The notes under the pieces are model-generated. The model was given only the letters and a program-made list of their open reading frames with translations, searched no databases and was not told the origin of the DNA. Source: a virus. Taken from it: 45,250 nt of DNA. The stretch spans positions 1-45,250 of the IMG/VR virus record IMGVR_UViG_3300031885_003865; one strand, written 5' to 3'. The position numbers were made by a program, and so were the translations under genes. Position 1 is the first letter of the stretch. Each line of letters opens with the position of its first letter. This document shows positions 6,843 through 44,725 of the stretch, piece by piece.

Positions 6843-6943
6843 ACGGAGGGCTGGCGGATGAACCCCGCCAGCCCCCCAGACCGGGACGCATGAACCACCT
6901 CCATTGTACCCTGCGGCGCGGTGGAGGTCAAGGAGGGAAATTC

Positions 6944-7273
6944 ATGGATCGACAGCAGGTGATCGACCGGCTGCTGAAGCTGCCCCAGGAGATCGAGGAG
7001 ACCGAAGTGGCACTGCTCGACGCTCAGGTCGGGGCGCTGGCGGCGAAGGAAGCGGTGACCGACCGGGAAGCCGAGCTCCTCGTGTCTGGTGTCATCGACG
7101 GCAAGAACGCGGAGACGCGCTCGGCGCAGGTGCGCGCGGCCACGGATGTGGAGCGCCTCGCGGCGCGCGAGGCCGAGAACGCCGTCTCCAGGTGTCGCAT
7201 CCGGTTCACGGCGCTGTGCAACGAGTTCAAGGCGTTGATCGCCGCGACTGCCCTCATCCGGGAGGTGGCGTAG
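6944..7273 (+). CDS. coiled-coil early protein preceding the recombination module
   Basis: 109 residues, almost wholly helical with heptad-like spacing (LLKLPQEIEETEVALLDAQV and later repeats). The start ATG follows AGGAGGGAAATTC. It abuts the next gene without a gap. Small coiled-coil proteins often precede phage annealing or recombination genes and may be accessory factors, but no motif proves it. Confidence 0.6.
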   Translation: MDRQQVIDRLLKLPQEIEETEVALLDAQVGALAAKEAVTDREAELLVSGVIDGKNAETRSAQVRAATDVERLAAREAENAVSRCRIRFTALCNEFKALIAATALIREVA

Positions 7274-8290
7274 GTGGGCGAGCAAACCGCTCTGGCGCTC
7301 AGGCTGGACCAGGACAAGGTCAACGTCGTCGTGCCGACCCTGTACACGGAAGACATCTCGCCGTTTCTGCGTCTCGTGGTGCAGGAGTTGCGGGTCAACC
7401 CCGACCCGGTCTACGGCGATGTCCACTACATCGAGCGGTATGTGAAAACCGAGGGGGGCGGCGGGAAGCAAGTCGCCGGCTTCATGCTCACGGCGGCCAA
7501 GGTATCCCAGTTCGCGGCCGCCGCCAACCTCCAGATCAACTACCGCGAATCGGGGGTCGTCGAGGACACGCCGACGCGCGTCAAGGCCGTGTGCGTCGGT
7601 GCCGTCCAGGACGCGACCGGCGATTGGCGCATCCTCCAGGCGACCAAAGCCCTCGACCTCGAGCAACTCGTCAAATCGGTCGGCGAGAAGCAGGCGCAGC
7701 AGAAGTGGCTCTTCCGGTACGAGATCGTGGAGACTGGTGCGCGGCTGCGCCTCGTCCGTGCCGCCTTGGGCCTCAAGACGGCATACTCCCACGACGAGAT
7801 CGCCAAGCCGTTTGCGATCGTGAGGGTGACGCCCCGGCTGGACGCCCCCGAGATGCGCGAGGCCATGCTCAGGCGGGCGGCTGCGTCATCGAGCGAGGTA
7901 TTCGGGGGCCCGCGGCCGGCTGCCCTGGCCGCGCCGGCGTCCCGGGGGCCGGTGGTCGATCTCGACGCCGGCCAGGTCGACAACGGGCTGCCCGAAAGTC
8001 CCGACATCCCGGCCGGCCGGCCGCCCATCGGCGACCCGCCGGGTGGTCCAGGAGCTGCGCCCGAGCCCTCGGCTTCCGGCGGTGCCGGACTCTTCCCGAA
8101 TGGCTCCCCGGCACCGGCCAACGGGCAAGCGCCCTCCGGCGCCCCGCGCCGCGCCGCCGCGCCCGCCGGCCACTGCTCAAACTGCGGTGTCGCCATCCCC
8201 GCAGCCGTCGTCGAATTCTCGACGCGGCGCTTCCACCGCGCCCTGTGCCGGGAGTGCCAGGCGGAGCAGAAGGCAGGCGGCGACTCATGA
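7274..8290 (+). CDS. putative phage recombination/ssDNA-annealing protein with C-terminal zinc finger
   Basis: The 338-residue product has a folded first 210 residues (strand-rich, ending LGLKTAYSHDEIAKPFAIVR). A proline/glycine/alanine-rich linker (about 225-295) follows, then a zinc finger CSNCGVAI...FHRALCRECQ. I recall the same fold-linker-finger layout, with a C-terminal CxxCG...lCxxCQ knuckle, in annealing proteins of Firmicutes phages. Its place immediately before SbcD- and SbcC-like genes, overlapping the former, supports a recombination role. I cannot assign it to RecT, Erf or Rad52 by motif. GTG start directly after the previous stop. Confidence 0.5.
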   Translation: MGEQTALALRLDQDKVNVVVPTLYTEDISPFLRLVVQELRVNPDPVYGDVHYIERYVKTEGGGGKQVAGFMLTAAKVSQFAAAANLQINYRESGVVEDTPTRVKAVCVGAVQDATGDWRILQATKALDLEQLVKSVGEKQAQQKWLFRYEIVETGARLRLVRAALGLKTAYSHDEIAKPFAIVRVTPRLDAPEMREAMLRRAAASSSEVFGGPRPAALAAPASRGPVVDLDAGQVDNGLPESPDIPAGRPPIGDPPGGPGAAPEPSASGGAGLFPNGSPAPANGQAPSGAPRRAAAPAGHCSNCGVAIPAAVVEFSTRRFHRALCRECQAEQKAGGDS

Positions 8291-9525
8291 AACTACTTCA
8301 CACCGCCGACTTGCACGCATTCCCCCGGCCACTTGCGGGCCTTGACCGGCGCGACGAGTGGCGCCGGTGCGCCAGCTTCATCCGGGAGTACGTCGCGGAG
8401 CAGGGGGTCGACCTGGTCGTCGTCGCCGGCGACCTCTTCGACCGGCCGCGCCCCGACCCAGAAGAGTTCCTGGCGGTCTACGACTTCCTGAAGGCCCTCG
8501 CCGCCGCCGGCGCCGAGGTGGTGGCCGTGCCCGGCACGCCGTCCCATGACGGTGACGGGCCCGACCGCCTCGGCCCGACAACCCTCCTGGCGTCCATCCT
8601 GGGCTGGCCAGCCGCGGGGCGGTACTCGGTCGACCCTGGACTTCTCAGCATCGAGCTGCGGTGCGGCTCCCCCGCGGTCGTCGGCGTCCTGCCGGGCGTG
8701 TCGCGGTCGTGGCTTGCCAGCCGCGACGAGTTCAAGGATCTCAGCCCCGTCGCGCTCAATGCGGAACTCGCGGCCCGACTCGGCAACGTCATCGGCGGGC
8801 TGGCGGCCAGCGCCGCGTCCGCGCCCGGGCCGCACATCCTCATCGGCCACCTGTCGGTCGACGGCTGCGTGGCCAGCTCGGACGAGTCGATTCGCATGAC
8901 CGCCGAGCCGGTCCTGGCGCTCGGTGACCTGCCCGACGCCTTCGGGGCGGTATGCCTCGGCCACATCCACGGGCCCCAGATTCTCCAGCAGCGCGGCCCC
9001 TGGGTGGGCTACTGCGGCTCGTGGATCCGCAAGGACTTCTCGGAGGAGGACGACGACAGGGGCTTCTGCGTCTTGGGCTTCGACGACCGGACCGGCGGGC
9101 TGGAGCGGGTCGAGTTCGTGGACCTGCCCGCTGCCCGGCTCCTGACCGTCGAGGCCGATGTCCGCGGTGCGACCGACCCACAGCAAGACCTCGCGAACCT
9201 CGTTGCGTCCTCGATTCCCACGGACGCGGACGACGAGGCGCGCCCCATCCTCCGCGTGCGGTGCCGGGCCACGGAGGACCAGTTGAAGCTGCTTTCCCCG
9301 CGCGCTCTCCAGGAGGCGGCCAAGGCCGCCGGTGCGCTGCATTTCGCCGGCCTGATCCCCAACATCGAGCGCGCCACGCGGGCGCGCGCCGAGGGTGTGA
9401 CCGAAGAGCTCTCGCCCCTCTCGGCCCTCGACTCGTACATCTCCGCCTCCCCCGATCTTCAGCCCGACCGCGAGGCACTCGTGGAGCGCGCGCGACCCCT
9501 GGTTGAGGAGGTGAGCCGCGGGTGA
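8287..9525 (+). CDS. sbcD: SbcD/Mre11-like metallophosphoesterase nuclease
   Basis: A 412-residue calcineurin-like nuclease subunit. Motif I HTADLH (D8, H10), motif II GDLFDR (D49), motif IV GHLS and motif V GHIHGP are present. Motif III, normally GNHD, reads GTPSHDG (83-89): the usual metal-bridging Asn is missing while His87 and Asp88 remain. A capping domain with LLTVEADVRG follows, and a C-terminal helix probably docks on SbcC. It overlaps both neighbours by four bases (ATGA before, GTGA after). With the SbcC-like ATPase it would resect ends or open hairpins during phage recombination and replication. Confidence 0.88.
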   Translation: MKLLHTADLHAFPRPLAGLDRRDEWRRCASFIREYVAEQGVDLVVVAGDLFDRPRPDPEEFLAVYDFLKALAAAGAEVVAVPGTPSHDGDGPDRLGPTTLLASILGWPAAGRYSVDPGLLSIELRCGSPAVVGVLPGVSRSWLASRDEFKDLSPVALNAELAARLGNVIGGLAASAASAPGPHILIGHLSVDGCVASSDESIRMTAEPVLALGDLPDAFGAVCLGHIHGPQILQQRGPWVGYCGSWIRKDFSEEDDDRGFCVLGFDDRTGGLERVEFVDLPAARLLTVEADVRGATDPQQDLANLVASSIPTDADDEARPILRVRCRATEDQLKLLSPRALQEAAKAAGALHFAGLIPNIERATRARAEGVTEELSPLSALDSYISASPDLQPDREALVERARPLVEEVSRG

Positions 9526-11663
9526 GACTCCAGGATTTGAAGCTCCGCAACTTCCTGAGCTACGGCGCGGCGGACGTGCCGCTGCGCGAGATCAATATGG
9601 CCGCCCTGGTCGGCGAGAACGGCGCCGGGAAGTCCGCGCTTCTCGACGCCGTCACGTTCGCCGTTTACGGCTGCGGGCGGGCGGCCACCGTCGACGACTT
9701 CATCCGCCGGGGCGAGCGCGTGATGGGCGTCGAGCTCGTGTTCGCCCTGGGCGGGGACGAGTACCGTGTAGTGCGCTCGCGCGGGCTGCAAGGCGGCGGG
9801 AAGTCGGCCCTCGAGCTCGCGCGGCGCGGCGAGGACGGGGGCTGGGTGCCGCTCACCGCGGAGAGCATCCGGCAGACCGAGGAGCGCATTCGCCAGCTCC
9901 TGCGCATGGATTATGAGACCTTCGTGGCGTCGTGCTTCGTGCTCCAGGGGCGGGCGGATGAGTTCACGGCCCGGACACCCGCCGAACGCAAGGCGGTGCT
10001 GGCGTCGGTCCTCGGGCTCGACCTCTACGACGACCTTCAGGCCGCCGCCAAGCAGGAGGCGCGCGCCCGTCAGGGCAGAGCCGACGCTGCGGGCCGCGAG
10101 CTCGATTCGGTTGAGGCGCAACTCGTGGAGCGCCCCGGGCTCGAGGAGCGCCAGGTGGCGGTGGCCGCCCGGGTGAGCGAGCTCACCGGGCAGATGGCGA
10201 CGGCGGAGACGGGACTCGGCGAGGCCCAGCGTGCCGCCGCCCTCGTCGAGTCGAAGGCCGCCGGCGTGACCGCGCTTCAGGAGCGCCTGGCGTCCGTGCG
10301 CCGGGAGATCGTCTCCCTCGAGGAACAGAAGAACGCCACGCCGGCCCGCCGTGAGCGGTTGGTCAAGATCCTCGACCGGCGCGACGACATCCTGAAGGCG
10401 GGCCGGGCCGAGGCGGACGTCAAGGCGTCCCTGGCCGAGCTGGAGCTGAAGGCGGACAGGGACCGCGCGCTCCGCGGCGGGCTGCAAACGGCGAGCGACG
10501 CCCTGGCCGGCTGGCAGCGGCAGCACGAGGGGAGGCTTGCTACCCTCCGGGCCCGCGTCGAGAGCGCAAGGCGCCAAGCCAGCCTCCTGGAGGATGTGCA
10601 GTGTGATCGCCGCGACTGCCGTTTCCTCGTCGAGGCTTTCGCGGCCGCCGACGGGCTGCTTGCCCTGGGCGAGACCCTGGCCGCCGAGGAGGGGGCCACG
10701 TCGTCCCACCTGGCGCAGATCGAGGGCCTCCAAGTGGAACTCGTCGGGGTCGGGTACGACCCCGAGGCTCACCGCCGGCTCCGCGCCCAGGCGGGAGAGC
10801 TCGAGCGGTGGACGAGGCTGAGGCCCGAGCTCGACCAGGCCGAGGCGGCCTTGCCGGACCTCGACACCCAGGAAAAGGCACTCGGCGAGACCATCGACCA
10901 GCGTCGCGCCGACGCCGGCCGTCTCGAGGCCGAGCTCCGGGAGGCGGAAGCCCACGCGGGGGCAGTCAAGGCCGCCCAGGCTCGCCTCAAGGAAGCTGGC
11001 CAGCAGGTGGACAACCTGCGGCGGTGCCTTGCCTCCGAGCAGCGGGCTCTGGGCGAGGTCGAGGGGCGGCTCAGGGTGCTCGACGAGCTGGCCGGCCGGC
11101 AGGACGGCCTGCGCCAGGAGGTCGCCCGGGAGACGCGCGAGGTGACTCTCTACGGCCGCTTGGCCGTCGCGTTCGGCAGAAACGGCGTACCGGCCCTCAT
11201 CATCGAGAACGCCATCCCGCAGATCGAGGTCCTCGCCAACGACCTCCTCGGCCGCATGACGGGCGGCCGGATGTCGGTGCGCCTGGTGACCCAGCGCGAG
11301 ACCAAGACGGCCGGGGTGGTCGAAACGCTGGACATCATCATCGCCGACGAGCTCGGCGAGCGCCCGTACGCCATGTGGTCGGGCGCCGAGCGTTTCGAGG
11401 TCGACATCAGCTTGCGGGTTGCCATCTCGAAGTTCCTCGCCCGCCGCGCCGGCACCCGGCTTGAGGTCTTGGTCATCGACGAGGGCATTGGTGCGCTCGA
11501 CGGTGCCGGTCGGCTCCGGTTCCTCGACGCCATCCAGACCGTTGCGTCGGACTTCAGCCAGGTCCTGGTGATCACGCACATCGACGAGGTCAAGGACGCC
11601 TTCCCCCAGCGCATCGAGGTGACGAAGGGCGCCGACGGCTCCCAGGCGAGGGTGGTGGCGTGA
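9522..11663 (+). CDS. sbcC: SbcC/Rad50-like ATPase
   Basis: 713 residues, shorter than bacterial SbcC but typical of phage homologues (T4 gp46-like). Walker A GENGAGKS is at 31-38 and a Q-loop lies near SCFVLQG. A long coiled coil (about 175-340 and 380-540) is broken at its centre by CDRRDC (C361, C366). ABC signature WSGAE is near 618, Walker B VLVIDEGIGALD near 650, and the switch His is in VITHID. Rad50 hooks are normally CxxC, so the C-x4-C spacing is unusual. The gene is translationally coupled to SbcD, its obligate partner. Confidence 0.92.
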   Translation: MRLQDLKLRNFLSYGAADVPLREINMAALVGENGAGKSALLDAVTFAVYGCGRAATVDDFIRRGERVMGVELVFALGGDEYRVVRSRGLQGGGKSALELARRGEDGGWVPLTAESIRQTEERIRQLLRMDYETFVASCFVLQGRADEFTARTPAERKAVLASVLGLDLYDDLQAAAKQEARARQGRADAAGRELDSVEAQLVERPGLEERQVAVAARVSELTGQMATAETGLGEAQRAAALVESKAAGVTALQERLASVRREIVSLEEQKNATPARRERLVKILDRRDDILKAGRAEADVKASLAELELKADRDRALRGGLQTASDALAGWQRQHEGRLATLRARVESARRQASLLEDVQCDRRDCRFLVEAFAAADGLLALGETLAAEEGATSSHLAQIEGLQVELVGVGYDPEAHRRLRAQAGELERWTRLRPELDQAEAALPDLDTQEKALGETIDQRRADAGRLEAELREAEAHAGAVKAAQARLKEAGQQVDNLRRCLASEQRALGEVEGRLRVLDELAGRQDGLRQEVARETREVTLYGRLAVAFGRNGVPALIIENAIPQIEVLANDLLGRMTGGRMSVRLVTQRETKTAGVVETLDIIIADELGERPYAMWSGAERFEVDISLRVAISKFLARRAGTRLEVLVIDEGIGALDGAGRLRFLDAIQTVASDFSQVLVITHIDEVKDAFPQRIEVTKGADGSQARVVA

Positions 11664-16018: not shown

Positions 16019-17326
16019 ATGCCGACGCCTAAGGGAGAACTGAACGACTTCACGCGGCTGTGGAACCCTCTTCGCGAAGCTCTGCGGCGCGCCGAGCTAT
16101 CCGGCCGGCGGCGCAGGGTGGTGGACGCCATCATCGACGCGAGCTTCGGCTGGAACAGGACGGAGACGGGGCCGCTCTCCTATTCCGACCTCGAGGCCGC
16201 AACGGGCATCCCGCGGCGCAAGGTGGGCGAGCACGTCACGACCCTGGTGGCGATGGGAGTGGTCAGGCGCGTCCAAGACCCAGGGGCGGCGCGCCAGAAG
16301 AGCTCGTACCGGCTCGTCAAGGACTTCCGGTTGTGGTTGCCCAGCGTCCTCGACCTGTCGCGGATGAGCCCCACCGCGATGCGCCTGGTCGCGGAGGAGT
16401 GCGGTGACGCCACCCCGACGGAGGCTGACAGTCCCCCCAATCGGCACAGTGCCGCTGAGGGGGACTGTGCCGCCCAGGGGGACTGTACGGTGCCGCCTGC
16501 GGGGACTGTACGGTGCCGCCCAGGGGCACAGTCCGGCCCCGCAAATTCAGGCGTGACGCAGGCGCGCGGGGGGCCTAAAGACAGGATCAAAGACAGCTCT
16601 AAAGACAGGGAGATCTCTCCCCCAGATCCCCCCCGGCCTTCCCTCGAGGAGCTCAGGGCCCGGTACACCCCGGAGCAGCTCACTGCCATCCACGACTACT
16701 GGGACGTCCAGCGGCTGAACCGGAAGAGCGGGCATGTGGCTCCGGGAGTGGTGCTCAACGAGATGCAGTATTGGGCGCGGTATCCGCCCGACCTGGTGGC
16801 CAGAGCGCTCGCGGTCCACCTGGCCGGCCACGAGGAGAAGTCCGAGCGCTACACCCGCGGCATCCTACGCGGGCTGAAGCGCGAGGAGGAGGCGAGGGAG
16901 CGTGCACGTGGGCGGGGCGGAGGCGTTGGGGCCCATCCTGGAGCGGGTGATGCAGGGCTTCGTCCGGCGCAAGGAGGAGGCGCTGATGCGCCTCGAGGCC
17001 GAGATTACCACTCGGGGCGGCTTGCACGCCGCGGCCAGGGCGCTCTACCCGCACCTGGTGGCGGGAGCGGAGCCGGGGTACCAGCTCGACCCGGCCCGGG
17101 TCCTGAGCTACGAGGGGGCGGAGCGGCAGCTGCGGGAGCACTGCCAGAACTGCCAGGGGGACGTGCCGGACCACTGGGCGTGCGAGTACCCGCGGCTCAC
17201 GACGTCGGGGGCGGTACTGCGCAAGCCGTGTCCCACCAGGCGGGCCTTCAGGAACCGCGAGAGGTACAGCCGCCTCCTGGGGGCGGCCAGACTGCCGGCG
17301 CGCTTCGCCCGCCGGACCCTCGATGA
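16019..17326 (+). CDS. phage replication protein O-like initiator, C-terminal reading extends over dnaC
   Basis: Residues about 8-95 match Phage_rep_O (PF04492): NDFTRLWNPLREALRRAELS, a winged helix with LSYSDLEAATGIPRRKVGEH, then VVRRVQDPG. The middle (137-200) is encoded by the iteron origin and is low-complexity. A second helical domain (about 210-285: LTAIHDYWDVQRLNRKSG, LARALAVHL-like helices, GILRGLKREEEARE) probably binds the helicase loader. Beyond about residue 294 the frame runs 425 bases inside the dnaC-like gene. There it loses the GC-rich third-position pattern, so the last 140 residues are probably not selected protein. The initiator would melt its internal origin and recruit the DnaC-like loader. 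ATG with GGCGGAG upstream. Confidence 0.85.
   Translation: MPTPKGELNDFTRLWNPLREALRRAELSGRRRRVVDAIIDASFGWNRTETGPLSYSDLEAATGIPRRKVGEHVTTLVAMGVVRRVQDPGAARQKSSYRLVKDFRLWLPSVLDLSRMSPTAMRLVAEECGDATPTEADSPPNRHSAAEGDCAAQGDCTVPPAGTVRCRPGAQSGPANSGVTQARGGPKDRIKDSSKDREISPPDPPRPSLEELRARYTPEQLTAIHDYWDVQRLNRKSGHVAPGVVLNEMQYWARYPPDLVARALAVHLAGHEEKSERYTRGILRGLKREEEARERARGRGGGVGAHPGAGDAGLRPAQGGGADAPRGRDYHSGRLARRGQGALPAPGGGSGAGVPARPGPGPELRGGGAAAAGALPELPGGRAGPLGVRVPAAHDVGGGTAQAVSHQAGLQEPREVQPPPGGGQTAGALRPPDPR
16427..16534. repeat. iteron cluster, probable replication origin inside the initiator gene
   Basis: Six copies of an ACTGT core lie in 108 bases. Direct copies are GGGGGACTGTGCCGCC (16459), GGGGGACTGTACGGTGCCGCC minus its end bases (16477) and GGGGACTGTACGGTGCCGCC (16501). 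Inverted copies are at 16427 (GACAGTCCCCC), 16443 (GGCACAGTGCC) and 16527 (CACAGTCC). Iterons in the middle of an O-like gene reproduce the lambda arrangement. Confidence 0.8.
16577..16608 (+). repeat. three 12-base-phased AAAGACAG direct repeats next to the iterons
   Basis: AAAGACAG begins at 16577, 16589 and 16601, exactly 12 bases apart. The stretch is locally AT-richer than its surroundings and encodes KDRIKDSSKDRE. It could be the unwinding element of the origin or a second binding array. Confidence 0.65.
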
Positions 17327-17867
17327 CTTCGAGGAGCGCGACGAGGACTCCCGCGGGGCGCTCGCTGCGGCTCGGCACCTGGTGGAGAGGTGGGGCGAGC
17401 CCGGGCTCAAGGGCCTTCTCGTCCTGGGGTCCAACGGGACCGGCAAGACGCACCTCGCCGCGGGCATCATGCAGGCGCTGATGGCGCGGGGGGTCGCCAC
17501 CAGGTTCTACACCGGCATTGAGCTCACCGACGAGTTCATCGCCGCGGCGCGCCGGTGGCAGCTCCGGGAGCTCTCCGACGCGCTGGCGACCGTGCCGCTT
17601 CTGGTCCTCGACGACCTCGGCAAGGAGTTCTTCAGGACGGTCGACGCCGAGGAGCGCGAGGCCTCGGCCTTCGCCCTGAGCCGGCTATTCGAGGTCATCA
17701 ACGGGCGGTACGAGGAGGAGCGCGTGACGGTCGTCACCAGCAACCTCAGCGAGGATGAGATCGCGCGGCGCTACGGGCGGGCGGTCTTCTCCAGGATGGC
17801 CGAGACAATGAGGCTGGTGCCGCTCGCCGGCGAGGACCGGCGCTGGCGGGGCAGCGGGGAGGTGTAG
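16902..17867 (+). CDS. DnaC/DnaI-like AAA+ helicase loader
   Basis: 321 residues with an N-terminal domain carrying a cysteine cluster (HCQNCQ, about 80-83; WAC near 94; KPC near 110), likely zinc-binding as in DnaI. An AAA+ ATPase follows: Walker A GSNGTGKT (176-183), Walker B LLVLDDLGKE (about 233-242), sensor I TVVTSNLS and arginine-finger region SRMAETMRLV. It would load the host replicative helicase at the phage origin. The GTG at 16902 follows GAGGAGGAGG inside the end of the initiator gene. No phage helicase is visible nearby, so the host DnaB-type helicase is probably used. Confidence 0.92.
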   Translation: MHVGGAEALGPILERVMQGFVRRKEEALMRLEAEITTRGGLHAAARALYPHLVAGAEPGYQLDPARVLSYEGAERQLREHCQNCQGDVPDHWACEYPRLTTSGAVLRKPCPTRRAFRNRERYSRLLGAARLPARFARRTLDDFEERDEDSRGALAAARHLVERWGEPGLKGLLVLGSNGTGKTHLAAGIMQALMARGVATRFYTGIELTDEFIAAARRWQLRELSDALATVPLLVLDDLGKEFFRTVDAEEREASAFALSRLFEVINGRYEEERVTVVTSNLSEDEIARRYGRAVFSRMAETMRLVPLAGEDRRWRGSGEV

Positions 17868-18124: not shown

Positions 18125-18913
18125 ATGGGGTCCAGAACCGCGTCGTTCGTGGCGGTGGTCCGCCAGATCACGATGGCGAACAAGCGGGAGGGACAGGTGT
18201 TCAGAATCCTGCTCGACTATGCCAGCGTGAAGGGTGAGACCCTGGAGACCCTGACCAAGTTCGGCGACGACGAGCAGGTGCGCGTCGTGATCCAGCCCAC
18301 GCAGGTGAGCATGGACGAGCTGCCACGGGTCGAGAAAGAGCGCCTCGGCCTGTTCGCGCAGGACGGCGCCGGGCCGGAGCATCCGGCCGCCGCTGCCCAG
18401 GTGGCCGGCGGGGAGGAGCGGGGGGACGGGGACACCGCCCCGGTTGACGCCAGCGGCCCGCCGCGGGACCTCGCGGAGGCCGACGGAGGGGGCGGCTCGT
18501 CGGGCGCAGCAGCCGATGACGCCGCGGCGAGTGCAGCTGAGGGCCCGGAAGGGCGCGCCAGCGCCGGCTCTGGCCCCGCTGAGGTCGGCGGCTTCATGGA
18601 GGACCACCGCCCGGAGATCGAGGACCTCCTGGGGGCCGGCACGCCGGACTCAACGATGAGCATGCCCCTCACGCACTTCGCCGCCGAGCTGGCGGTACTC
18701 GGATGCCGTGCCTCCTACGATGACGTGCGGGTCGCCATCGGTCGTACGGGCTACCTTGCCCTCGAGCGGTCAGGCCGCGGGTACCGGGTGAGGTTGACCG
18801 CGATCGAGGACCTGCAGGCAGCAGGCGACGATGGCGACGGTCCGGTCGTCAGCGCCGTGCCGCCTGCCCCGGTGGAGCTGGCGGCCGCGCCCGCGGGGGG
18901 TGCGGCGGAATGA
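18125..18913 (+). CDS. ParB-adjacent protein with C-terminal domain shared with the gene after parB
   Basis: 262 residues, ATG 18125 with CGGAGGTG. An N-terminal folded part (about 1-70: REGQVFRILLDYASVKGETL, VRVVIQP) joins, through a long Gly/Ala/acidic linker, a C-terminal winged-helix-like domain (about 178-232: LTHFAAELAVLGCRASYDDV, IGRTGYLALERSGRGYRVRL). The latter matches the 20562-21008 protein at 16 of 33 positions. It overlaps parB by four bases, so the three genes form one translational unit. I infer a DNA-binding or ParB-partner role. Confidence 0.65.
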   Translation: MGSRTASFVAVVRQITMANKREGQVFRILLDYASVKGETLETLTKFGDDEQVRVVIQPTQVSMDELPRVEKERLGLFAQDGAGPEHPAAAAQVAGGEERGDGDTAPVDASGPPRDLAEADGGGGSSGAAADDAAASAAEGPEGRASAGSGPAEVGGFMEDHRPEIEDLLGAGTPDSTMSMPLTHFAAELAVLGCRASYDDVRVAIGRTGYLALERSGRGYRVRLTAIEDLQAAGDDGDGPVVSAVPPAPVELAAAPAGGAAE

Positions 18914-20565
18914 CGGACCACGGCCGCCGCGGAGGCCTCCTAGACACCCTTGGCGCGACGCCGTTGAGCAGCCCCGTCGACGCCGGCGGGAAGGTGCTGG
19001 GCATCCCTCTCAACAGCATCCTGGTCGGTCGGAACGTCCGGCGCAACTTCGACGCGGCAGCCATGCAGCAGCTCACCGATAGCGTCAGACGCGTCGGCGT
19101 GCTGCAGCCCATCCTCGTTCGCCCCGCTGGCGACGGTTCTCCCGTGCTCTACATCCTCGTCTGTGGCGAGCGCCGGCTGAGGGCCGCCGAGGCGGCCGGT
19201 CTGGCCGCGATACCAGCCGTGGTGCGTGATCTCGACGACTCTGCGGCGCGGGAAGCGATGCTCATGGAGAACCTCCAGCGCCGCGATCTGGACCCCGTGG
19301 AGGAGGCCGCTGGGTTCCAGGAGCTCCTCCAGGAACACGGCTACAAGCAGCAGGAGCTGGCCGAGCGCCTGGGTGTGTCCCAGCCGCACATCGCCAACCG
19401 CCTGCGGCTGCTGAAGTTGCCCGAGGAAGTCCGGGAGCATATTTCGCGTGAAATACTGACGCCCGGGCACGCAATGGCCCTGCTACGCCTCGAGGTGGCA
19501 CCGGCGATGCTACTCCAGTGTGCGCAGCAGCTGGTTGCGGAGGAAACGCCGGTCGCAAAAGCAGGGGACCAAGTCGACGAGATCGTGCGCCGTACCGCGA
19601 AGCCCCTCGATCCTGACCGCTACCCGCACGAGGACAAGCCGGTGTTCGACACCACGACCTGCGGCAACTGCCATGAAAGCATCAGGGTCTCCAAGTGGCA
19701 GGGAGCCTCGGACAAGACCCCGTTCTGCCTCAACGGTGAGTGCTGGAGCCGCAAGCAGACAGAGGCGCAACAGACGCAGGCGGCCGCGCTCCGGGAGAAA
19801 TTCGGCAAGGCCGCCAAGGGCGGCAAGGTGCTCACAAGAGACGCCCTTCCGCAGGACGGGGACTCCTGGAGGCAGCTCAAGCACGAGAAGGACATCGACT
19901 CGGCCGCGTGCGAGGGCTGCAAGGACCTCGCCATCGCCCAGCTCTACTCGGCAGAGCCTGAGCCCGTGTGCCTTAACCCCAAGTGCCTCCGCAGGAAAGT
20001 CGCGGCGGTCACGCGGGAGAAAAACAAGGTGGCCCGCGAGACGGCCGCGGCCGCGGTCCAGAGCGCTGTCGAGTGGGCGCGGCGGACGGCTGCGGCGGGT
20101 ATCACCAAGGACGTACTCGTGCCTCTCGCCGGGCTCGTGTTCACGAACGTCAAGGCACAATGGCAGACCGGCGTCCCGGTGCAAAAGGCTGACACCTTCT
20201 TGAGGAACCGGGGGTTGGACATCGGGAACGCTCTCTGGTGCGTCGAGAATCAGGGCTGGCCGCAGTTCAAGGCGCAGCTCGAGGCCCTGTCCGAGGAGGC
20301 CCTGCTGGCGCTGGTCCTCGAATGGGCCGCGGTCGCGCTCGGCGGCACGTGGCTCATGCGCCTGGCCATGGGGCTGGAGCCACCGAACGCCGCCGCCCCC
20401 GACGACTACGTCGGGGCGGAGGATGAGGATTGCGACGGCGACTGTGACAATTGCGACGACGACGAGTGCGACACGCGCCGCGCGGACGGCGGCAAGGAAG
20501 CCGACAACGGCGCAGACGCCGCAGCCACGGTCAACGACCCCCTGACAAAGGAGGAAATCTCATGA
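18910..20565 (+). CDS. parB: ParB/Spo0J-family protein with zinc-binding C-terminal extension
   Basis: 551 residues. The ParB N-terminal (CTPase) domain spans about 30-125 with CGERRLRAAEAAG (85-97) and MENLQRRDLDPVEEA (119-133). The central HTH is YKQQELAERLGVSQPHIANR. The C-terminal half is not the usual ParB dimer: two cysteine sets (CGNC with FCLNGECW, about 251-276; CEGC with VCLNPKCL, about 335-361) probably bind zinc. The end is an Asp/Cys run (DCDGDCDNCDDDEC). Proteins of this class bind parS and slide as CTP clamps; some phage versions are nucleases or regulators. No ParA is present. A parS-like palindrome lies inside the gene (19440-19455). It is coupled by ATGA overlaps to genes on both sides. 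Confidence 0.88.
   Translation: MTDHGRRGGLLDTLGATPLSSPVDAGGKVLGIPLNSILVGRNVRRNFDAAAMQQLTDSVRRVGVLQPILVRPAGDGSPVLYILVCGERRLRAAEAAGLAAIPAVVRDLDDSAAREAMLMENLQRRDLDPVEEAAGFQELLQEHGYKQQELAERLGVSQPHIANRLRLLKLPEEVREHISREILTPGHAMALLRLEVAPAMLLQCAQQLVAEETPVAKAGDQVDEIVRRTAKPLDPDRYPHEDKPVFDTTTCGNCHESIRVSKWQGASDKTPFCLNGECWSRKQTEAQQTQAAALREKFGKAAKGGKVLTRDALPQDGDSWRQLKHEKDIDSAACEGCKDLAIAQLYSAEPEPVCLNPKCLRRKVAAVTREKNKVARETAAAAVQSAVEWARRTAAAGITKDVLVPLAGLVFTNVKAQWQTGVPVQKADTFLRNRGLDIGNALWCVENQGWPQFKAQLEALSEEALLALVLEWAAVALGGTWLMRLAMGLEPPNAAAPDDYVGAEDEDCDGDCDNCDDDECDTRRADGGKEADNGADAAATVNDPLTKEEIS
19440..19455 (+). promoter_or_regulatory. parS-like site A (within parB)
   Basis: TATTTCGCGTGAAATA has 6-base perfect arms around GCGT. 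It has the same plan as chromosomal parS (GTTTC-ACGT-GAAAC). It encodes ISREI within the ParB linker. The 15-mer ATTTCGCGTGAAATA recurs exactly at 44710. Confidence 0.65.
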
Positions 20566-21008
20566 TCCAGCGGCAACCGGAATCCATCGTCAGGTTCAAC
20601 CTGGCGCCGCCGCCAGGCAAGGACTGGACGCGCGAGAACATCGAGCTCTACCTGCTGCAAGTGATCGCGCAGGGCGTGCGGCACATCGCGGAGCGCGTCG
20701 ACGCCCTCTCCAGGGCTGCCGACCTCGTCGAGCAGAAGAACGCCGAGCTGCGCATCGTGGAGGGCGCGCTGGAGCTGCAGCACTACCAGGCCGAGATCAA
20801 GGCCGTCTTCGCGGCGCACGGCGCGGCCACCATGCGGGCCAGCACGTTCTGCGACGCGCTGTACCGGCTCAAGCTCTTTGTCAGCGCGAGAGAGCTGCAG
20901 CGCAGCATCGTCAGGACCGACTTCCTCGCCCTGGAGCCCGCCGGCGGCGGCCACCGGGTACGACTGATCGCGGCGGAGCCGGCCGCGGCGGGGGAGGGCG
21001 CGGCGTGA
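20562..21008 (+). CDS. second ParB-adjacent protein, sharing the winged-helix-like domain
   Basis: 148 residues. An N-terminal helical coil (WTRENIELYLLQVIAQGVRH, IAERVDALSRAADLVEQK) is followed by a C-terminal domain (about 88-140: STFCDALYRLKLFVSARELQ, IVRTDFLALEPAGGGHRVRL). That domain is the same as in the protein before parB. Position and coupling (ATGA with the parB stop) suggest a duplicated ParB-partner family. No published family is recognised. Confidence 0.65.
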   Translation: MIQRQPESIVRFNLAPPPGKDWTRENIELYLLQVIAQGVRHIAERVDALSRAADLVEQKNAELRIVEGALELQHYQAEIKAVFAAHGAATMRASTFCDALYRLKLFVSARELQRSIVRTDFLALEPAGGGHRVRLIAAEPAAAGEGAA

Positions 21009-21277
21009 AGGCGACCAGCAAACGACACACAGCGGCGGCAGCCGCGCCCAGGTTGGCCGTCGCGTACCGGTACACGGTCGAGGTCCGCTACCCGTGTGAG
21101 GCGACGCGCGTCGAGCGCCACCGCTCGCCCCTGGCGACGGGGCAGGTGGTGCCCCGGCATCCAGTCTGCGAGCACCCGGAGGCCTGCCCACCGGGCGCGG
21201 CTACAAAGCACTGGTTCTGGTGGTGCTCGGCGACAGTCGTCAGCGTTGCGGAGGTAGAGGAGGCGACGACCCGGTGA
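21005..21277 (+). CDS. small protein with C/H-rich centre
   Basis: 90 residues, GTG start overlapping the previous stop. YRYTVEVRYPCEATRVERHR leads to HPVCEHPEACPPG...HWFWWCSATVV; the C/H pattern could bind one metal. It overlaps the ASCH gene by four bases. Function unknown. Confidence 0.55.
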   Translation: MKATSKRHTAAAAAPRLAVAYRYTVEVRYPCEATRVERHRSPLATGQVVPRHPVCEHPEACPPGAATKHWFWWCSATVVSVAEVEEATTR

Positions 21278-21744
21278 AAGCCATCACGCTGTGGCAGCCG
21301 TGGGCCAGCCTCGTGGCCGTCGGCGCGAAGTCGGTTGAGACCCGCTCGTGGTGGACTGCCTATCGCGGCCCGCTGGCCATCCACGCCGGCGCCGCCCTGC
21401 GCCTGGAGCACCGGGCGTTGTGCGCGGAGGAGCCGTTCAGGGCTGCCCTGCGGCGCGGCGGGCTGACCGACCCGCGTGCCCTGCCACTGGGCGGGGTGAT
21501 CGCCGTTTGTGAGCTCGTGGACTGTAGCCTGATTCGCCGCGGACCCGAGGCCTTCTTGGGCAGCAGCGAACGTATGGTCCGCCCGAGCGCCCAGGAGGTC
21601 GCGCTCGGAGACTGGACGCCTGGGCGCTATGCCTGGTGCCTGGCCAACGTTCGGGCCCTGCCGCGCCCGATATCGGCCCGCGGCCGCCAAGGCCTGTGGG
21701 AGTGGGGGGCGCCGGCGGCAATCGAGGAGATGGTGTCGGGATGA
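21274..21744 (+). CDS. ASCH-domain protein
   Basis: 156 residues matching phage ASCH proteins (PF04266). It opens MKAITLWQPWASLVAVGAKS with VETRSWWTAYRGPLAIHAG, the classic family start, and later has GGVIAVCELVDC and YAWCLANVRALPRPI. The fold binds RNA or modified nucleotides; some members are amidohydrolases or ribonucleases. The GTG start overlaps the upstream stop (GTGA). It sits between the ParB group and rusA in a tightly packed early operon. Confidence 0.88.
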   Translation: MKAITLWQPWASLVAVGAKSVETRSWWTAYRGPLAIHAGAALRLEHRALCAEEPFRAALRRGGLTDPRALPLGGVIAVCELVDCSLIRRGPEAFLGSSERMVRPSAQEVALGDWTPGRYAWCLANVRALPRPISARGRQGLWEWGAPAAIEEMVSG

Positions 21745-35349: not shown

Positions 35350-35365
35350 ATTTTGCGTGAAATAT
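35350..35365 (+). promoter_or_regulatory. parS-like site B
   Basis: ATTTTGCGTGAAATAT in the gap between tail tube and tail chaperone genes. It differs from site C at one base (T for C at position 5), and the match extends further to TCG. Same strand orientation as sites A and C. Confidence 0.55.
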
Positions 35366-44709: not shown

Positions 44710-44725
44710 ATTTCGCGTGAAATAT
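44710..44725 (+). promoter_or_regulatory. parS-like site C
   Basis: ATTTCGCGTGAAATAT in the 69-base gap before the holin-like genes. The first 15 bases are identical to site A in parB, and all but one base match site B. Confidence 0.65.

Follow-up and report, generated by a model that had tools for sequence, protein, structure and literature searches.

A phage ParB locus with parS/NBS-hybrid sites and winged-helix-like partner proteins that points to gene control

The ParB locus of the virus record IMGVR_UViG_3300031885_003865 looks more like a gene-control system around a ParB clamp than like a machine that shares out DNA at cell division. Judged from its motifs, the ParB is an orphan of the CTP-clamp type. 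It is encoded between the genes of two proteins which end in related winged-helix-like domains, and the downstream protein accompanies ParB also in a second phage (IMGVR_UViG_3300031885_003861). The window, i.e. the whole stretch of 45,250 bases that was analysed, represents a temperate tailed phage, in which genes for an integrase, a repressor, SbcCD-like, RepO-like and DnaC-like proteins, a terminase, a portal, a head and a tape-measure protein were recognised.

The RepO-like (16019) and DnaC-like (16902-17867) replication genes are located directly upstream of the parB locus. Upstream of this replication block, the SbcD-like and SbcC-like genes adjoin each other (6904-11663); the early region also contains a DUF5131 gene (PF07505; 13672-14628). 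The locus begins with the gene of a 262-aa protein (18125-18913, + strand), which is supported by its open reading frame with ATG at 18125 and TGA at 18913, by a Shine-Dalgarno sequence (GGAGG) 8 nt 5' of the start and by a 4-base overlap with parB. A shorter form of this protein (P0001, 246 aa) starts at 18173. The parB gene (18910-20565, + strand) is followed by the gene of a 148-aa protein (20562-21008, + strand), and the GC content of the three codon positions indicates that both flanking genes are really coding. The genes overlap by ATGA at both junctions (18910-18913 and 20562-20565), which confirms the 4-base overlaps of the earlier note; such overlaps are ordinary and occur at 29 of 73 downstream neighbours. 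The reading frame behind the downstream gene may likewise share four bases with it (GTGA at 21005). In both phages, an ASCH-like gene (21220-21744, + strand, in the window) comes after the pair of ParB and downstream protein.

ParB itself belongs to its family (PF02195, 78 bits; PF17762, 88 bits; both above cut-off). It possesses the CTPase fold motifs GERRLRAA and ENLQRRDLDPVEEA (GERR at residue 86, ENxQRxDLxPxEEA at residue 120), a ParB HTH, a C-terminal extension with eight cysteines and an acidic tail; the CTP-binding and HTH motifs are intact. The extension (residues 251-359; 19660-19986) is common to the ParBs of PRTRC plasmids and probably binds zinc. Its FDxxxCxxC motif is also present in other viral ParBs (L009, L010, L012, L014 and L058).

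Putative binding sites for this protein were found in both phages. The parS/NBS-hybrid site TATTTCGCGTGAAATA lies inside parB (19440-19455, + strand), where it covers the codons for HISREI. Its core occurs as an exact copy at 44710 and with one change at 35350: the site ATTTTGCGTGAAAT (35350-35363, + strand) is located among the tail genes, 20 nt 5' of ATG 35384, and the site ATTTCGCGTGAAAT (44710-44723, + strand) 33 nt 5' of GTG 44757. The second phage contains a pair of such sites (L008 6451-6464 and L110 11713-11726), with CATTTCACGTGGAATG inside its parB at the same codons as TATTTCGCGTGAAATA and the same 14-mer ATTTTGCGTGAAAT 3 nt 5' of a tail-region gene. A control search of the window and the other phage, which hold three and two sites, respectively, with the reversed pattern yielded zero matches. 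In each phage one of the sites stands before a tail-block gene, and the position of the sites outside parB, 3 to 33 nt before start codons, suggests that they are operators.

Bacterial parS is TGTTTCAC-GTGAAACA and the Noc-binding site NBS is TATTTCCC-GGGAAATA. The phage sites (TATTTCGC-GTGAAATA and CATTTCAC-GTGGAATG) combine A at position 1 with a parS-like core and are hybrids of parS and NBS. The specificity positions 173, 179, 184 and 201 are occupied by Q, R, K and G in both phage ParBs. According to Jalal et al., A is favoured at position 1 if Q173 is combined with a permissive lysine, R201 selects C at position 6, and the RxxG specificity set was reported to be invariant in ParB orthologs (PMC7383237). 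With Q-R-K-G and without R201, A1 without C6 would be predicted, which is what the phage sites show. The phage protein may represent a natural ParB with an intermediate ParB/Noc specificity that is matched by intermediate sites. At residue 189 (19474-19476), both phage ParBs have Met at the place of Arg204. In ParB and Noc, Arg204 is conserved and contacts parS.

The two proteins flanking ParB end in a related domain of about 75 residues (31-33% identity), which extends from 18590 to 18838 in the upstream and from 20760 to 20987 in the downstream gene (both + strand). BLASTP of the two proteins gave one meaningful HSP (21 of 68 residues identical, E = 1e-5), which was confined to the C-termini; the N-termini have no similarity to each other, as had been noticed earlier. 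The domains also stood out in a Smith-Waterman comparison with 2000 shuffled sequences, which gave z = 10.4 and p ~ 9e-7, and reversed sequences gave a background score. Furthermore, an HMM for which only the ortholog and the downstream protein itself were used independently recognised the upstream gene at 18662-18829 (E = 2.5e-5); it had no other match in this phage genome. The C-terminal motif that the earlier note described has its 16 identities, but they fall in 32 columns instead of 33, and its spacing is S-x7-I and not S-x8-I. The two copies of the domain are about 33% identical, the downstream orthologs 72%; any duplication must consequently be old or fast-evolving.

An AlphaFold2 model of the domain calculated from three sequences is a winged helix (pLDDT 83.9, pTM 0.73) with the topology H1-S1-H2-H3-S2-wing-S3, in agreement with the winged-helix-like module proposed before. 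The top Foldseek matches are winged-helix proteins, namely F93 of STIV, LOTUS domains and Cdt1, with weak E-values (0.03 at best, up to 0.2) and TM-scores of up to 0.68. No Pfam or PHROG family, including MarR and LOTUS/OST-HTH, matched the domain at E <= 10. The fold is therefore a predicted one, and these libraries do not describe the family. The model of the full-length downstream protein was too poor to be used (pLDDT 46); modelling suggests two long N-terminal helices in front of the winged-helix-like domain.

Relatives were sought among 80 viral ParB loci, only one of which, that of IMGVR_UViG_3300031885_003861, has the downstream protein (L008:7548-8015; 74% identical). The ParBs of the two phages are 47% identical. 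In the second phage, parB and the downstream gene overlap by ATGA as well and are followed by the same ASCH-type gene, and parB comes after a glucosaminidase gene instead of replication genes. A comparison of positions 1-45000 of the 49208 of this record with the listed genes of the window revealed as further shared genes only the glucosaminidase, a part of the repressor and, weakly, the tape-measure gene; there was no match to the genes for terminase, portal and capsid. As so few other genes are shared, ParB, the downstream protein and the ASCH gene form a shared module, and the link between ParB and its neighbours that had been proposed thus holds for the downstream protein, which travels with ParB in both phages. 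The dS between the phages is 0.22 for the downstream gene in comparison to 0.88 for parB and 0.60 for the ASCH gene; these values are rough, as third-position GC is near 0.9. Strong protein constraint was considered as the cause of the 74% identity and rejected, since dS is also low; a more recent common ancestor or an exchange is the likelier cause. This suggests that the downstream gene was exchanged between phages more recently than its neighbours. Among 64 proteins encoded directly behind other viral ParBs, HTH-type domains are rare, so that phage ParBs are not generally accompanied by a winged-helix partner.

The upstream protein consists of an N-terminal region of about 60 residues, an Ala/Gly-rich linker of about 77 residues and the C-terminal winged-helix-like domain. 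Profile searches gave no family match, and searches of phage records and contigs no relative. Its gene is absent from IMGVR_UViG_3300031885_003861, both beside parB, where an unrelated 65-aa ORF takes its place, and in the whole record. Hence, the duplicated flanking pair occurs only in IMGVR_UViG_3300031885_003865 among the records searched, and a dedicated pair evolved by duplication, as the earlier note had proposed, is not borne out. When the flanking proteins were looked up in phage records and in viral and genome contigs, only the second phage matched. Outside ParB neighbourhoods, the domain was not found in the searches run; those of the viral and genome contigs used short conserved peptides as query and would miss distant relatives.

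A function in partition was one of the explanations considered. The earlier note regarded the winged-helix pair as a replacement of ParA, and the presence of a ParB and its cognate sites in a phage that has no gene for ParA agrees with this. Of the components of a ParABS system, the parS-like sites are present, but neither phage has a ParA gene, and the ParA-binding motif (L/F/I)G(K/R)G(L/F/I) is absent from both ParBs. As for a ParA-type Walker ATPase in the phage, PF13614 gave no match, and PF01656 matched only a P-loop fragment of the DnaC-like gene, with a score below threshold. Neither flanking protein matched an ATPase family or contains a recognised NTPase domain, and conservation does not extend to the upstream copy. 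The presence of integrase and repressor implies lysogeny in the chromosome, and the phage therefore probably does not need plasmid-type partition. Without a motor domain in the flanking proteins, a replacement of ParA is unsupported and hardly credible. Orphan ParBs usually lack the ParA-binding motif (PMC12704722). The phage ParB might instead hijack the ParA or partition machinery of the host with the winged-helix proteins as adaptors, which would fit the resemblance of the sites to bacterial parS and of the ParB core to chromosomal Spo0J and Noc. The missing ParA-binding motif and the specificity residues, which are shifted from the RxxG set (PMC7383237), make this very unlikely.

The position of the locus directly behind replication genes, together with a site in parB itself, could point to an accessory complex for replication or DNA handling, in which ParB loads near the replication genes and the winged-helix proteins mark or organise the origin or the replicating DNA. 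On chromosomes, ParB has such a role for SMC and the origin region. Replication proteins commonly contain winged helices of this size, and Cdt1 is among the fold matches. Nevertheless, this explanation is rather improbable, as parB follows the glucosaminidase gene in the other phage and two of the three sites lie in leaders of late genes, far from the replication block. It is also conceivable, though not probable, that the winged helices were recruited independently from one unsampled phage DNA-binding family and that at least the upstream copy is unrelated to ParB, for example as a regulator of an ordinary type that is merely translated from this operon. The lack of the upstream gene in the only relative, the low identity of the copies in comparison to the orthologs and the ordinary nature of ATGA overlaps argue for such a recruitment; the abutment of both copies on parB and the restriction of the domain to ParB neighbourhoods in the searches run argue against it.

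Our preferred, albeit tentative, explanation is that a ParB clamp and a winged-helix co-regulator, in the manner of KorB and KorA, control phage genes, with the upstream protein as a lineage-specific extra. ParB would act as a CTP-dependent sliding clamp, which is loaded at a small number of hybrid sites in its own gene and in the leaders of tail and late genes, closes on CTP and then slides. The co-translated downstream protein might bind the clamp by direct contact, or its DNA, and stall or position ParB at target promoters as KorA does with KorB (PMC11790492). ParB parked in this way would silence phage genes or set their timing, and several genes could be served by few sites. In the upstream protein, the same winged helix, in diverged form, would be attached by a long flexible linker to a different head; this protein would have been added in this lineage outside any conserved three-gene core; through its related winged helix, a second activity may reach the ParB complex. 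Control by a co-regulator is favoured because the two domains are homologous and the modelled fold is a winged helix, because the sites have the A1 that the specificity residues predict, because parB and the downstream gene are passed on together between otherwise mostly unrelated phages, because the sites outside parB sit shortly before start codons, and because the CTP-binding and HTH motifs are intact in a phage with integrase and repressor and no ParA. Against it speak the one site that lies inside parB and not at a promoter, the occurrence of the downstream protein in two phages only, the poor full-length model and the outcome of the searches, which revealed no sigma-70-type promoter near the site at 35350, no operators for the winged-helix proteins in the phage and no sequence relationship to KorA. 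A more novel form of sliding-clamp control, in which the orphan ParB with its hybrid parS/NBS specificity is parked in its own gene and in late leaders by winged-helix adaptors of an undescribed family, whose different heads are joined to a common DNA-binding domain, is possible but not likely. Phage ParBs without ParA are common, and a role is known for few of them. In the two phages, the sites, the specificity residues and a linked winged-helix partner can now be named, so that the function of an orphan ParB becomes directly testable.

Among the known systems, KorB/KorA of plasmid RK2 likewise combines a CTP-clamp protein of the ParB family with a small HTH DNA-binding partner and regulates from few dispersed sites (PMC11790492). 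It differs in its sites, its C-terminal extension and the type of genome. RK2 furthermore has a ParA (IncC), which the phage lacks, and no sequence relationship was found between KorA and the phage partner.

PRTRC ParBs (TIGR03734) have the same domain order as the phage ParB, and all eight cysteines are invariant in comparison to three plasmid PRTRC ParBs; the two CxxC...Cx4C modules are present, and 17 of the best 20 plasmid matches are annotated as PRTRC ParB. However, the phage ParB reaches only 165.4 bits against a cut-off of 278.6, and the PRTRC companions ThiF and PRTRC C were not found in the phage. PRTRC E, which has the same place beside ParB, was rejected as a relative of the flanking proteins (HHalign probability <0.5%, no better than shuffles). 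Among the NCBIfam models, Noc gave the best score for the phage ParB (175 bits, below the cut-off of 315 bits). Both share Q and K among the specificity residues and A1 in the sites, whereas Noc has Q-K-K-R instead of Q-R-K-G, with R in place of G at position 201, and lacks the Cys-rich extension. With orphan phage ParBs that possess C-terminal extensions, the protein shares the lack of ParA and of the ParA-binding motif and the location on a mobile element (PMC12704722); it differs from them by the winged-helix partner linked in two phages and the second copy upstream.
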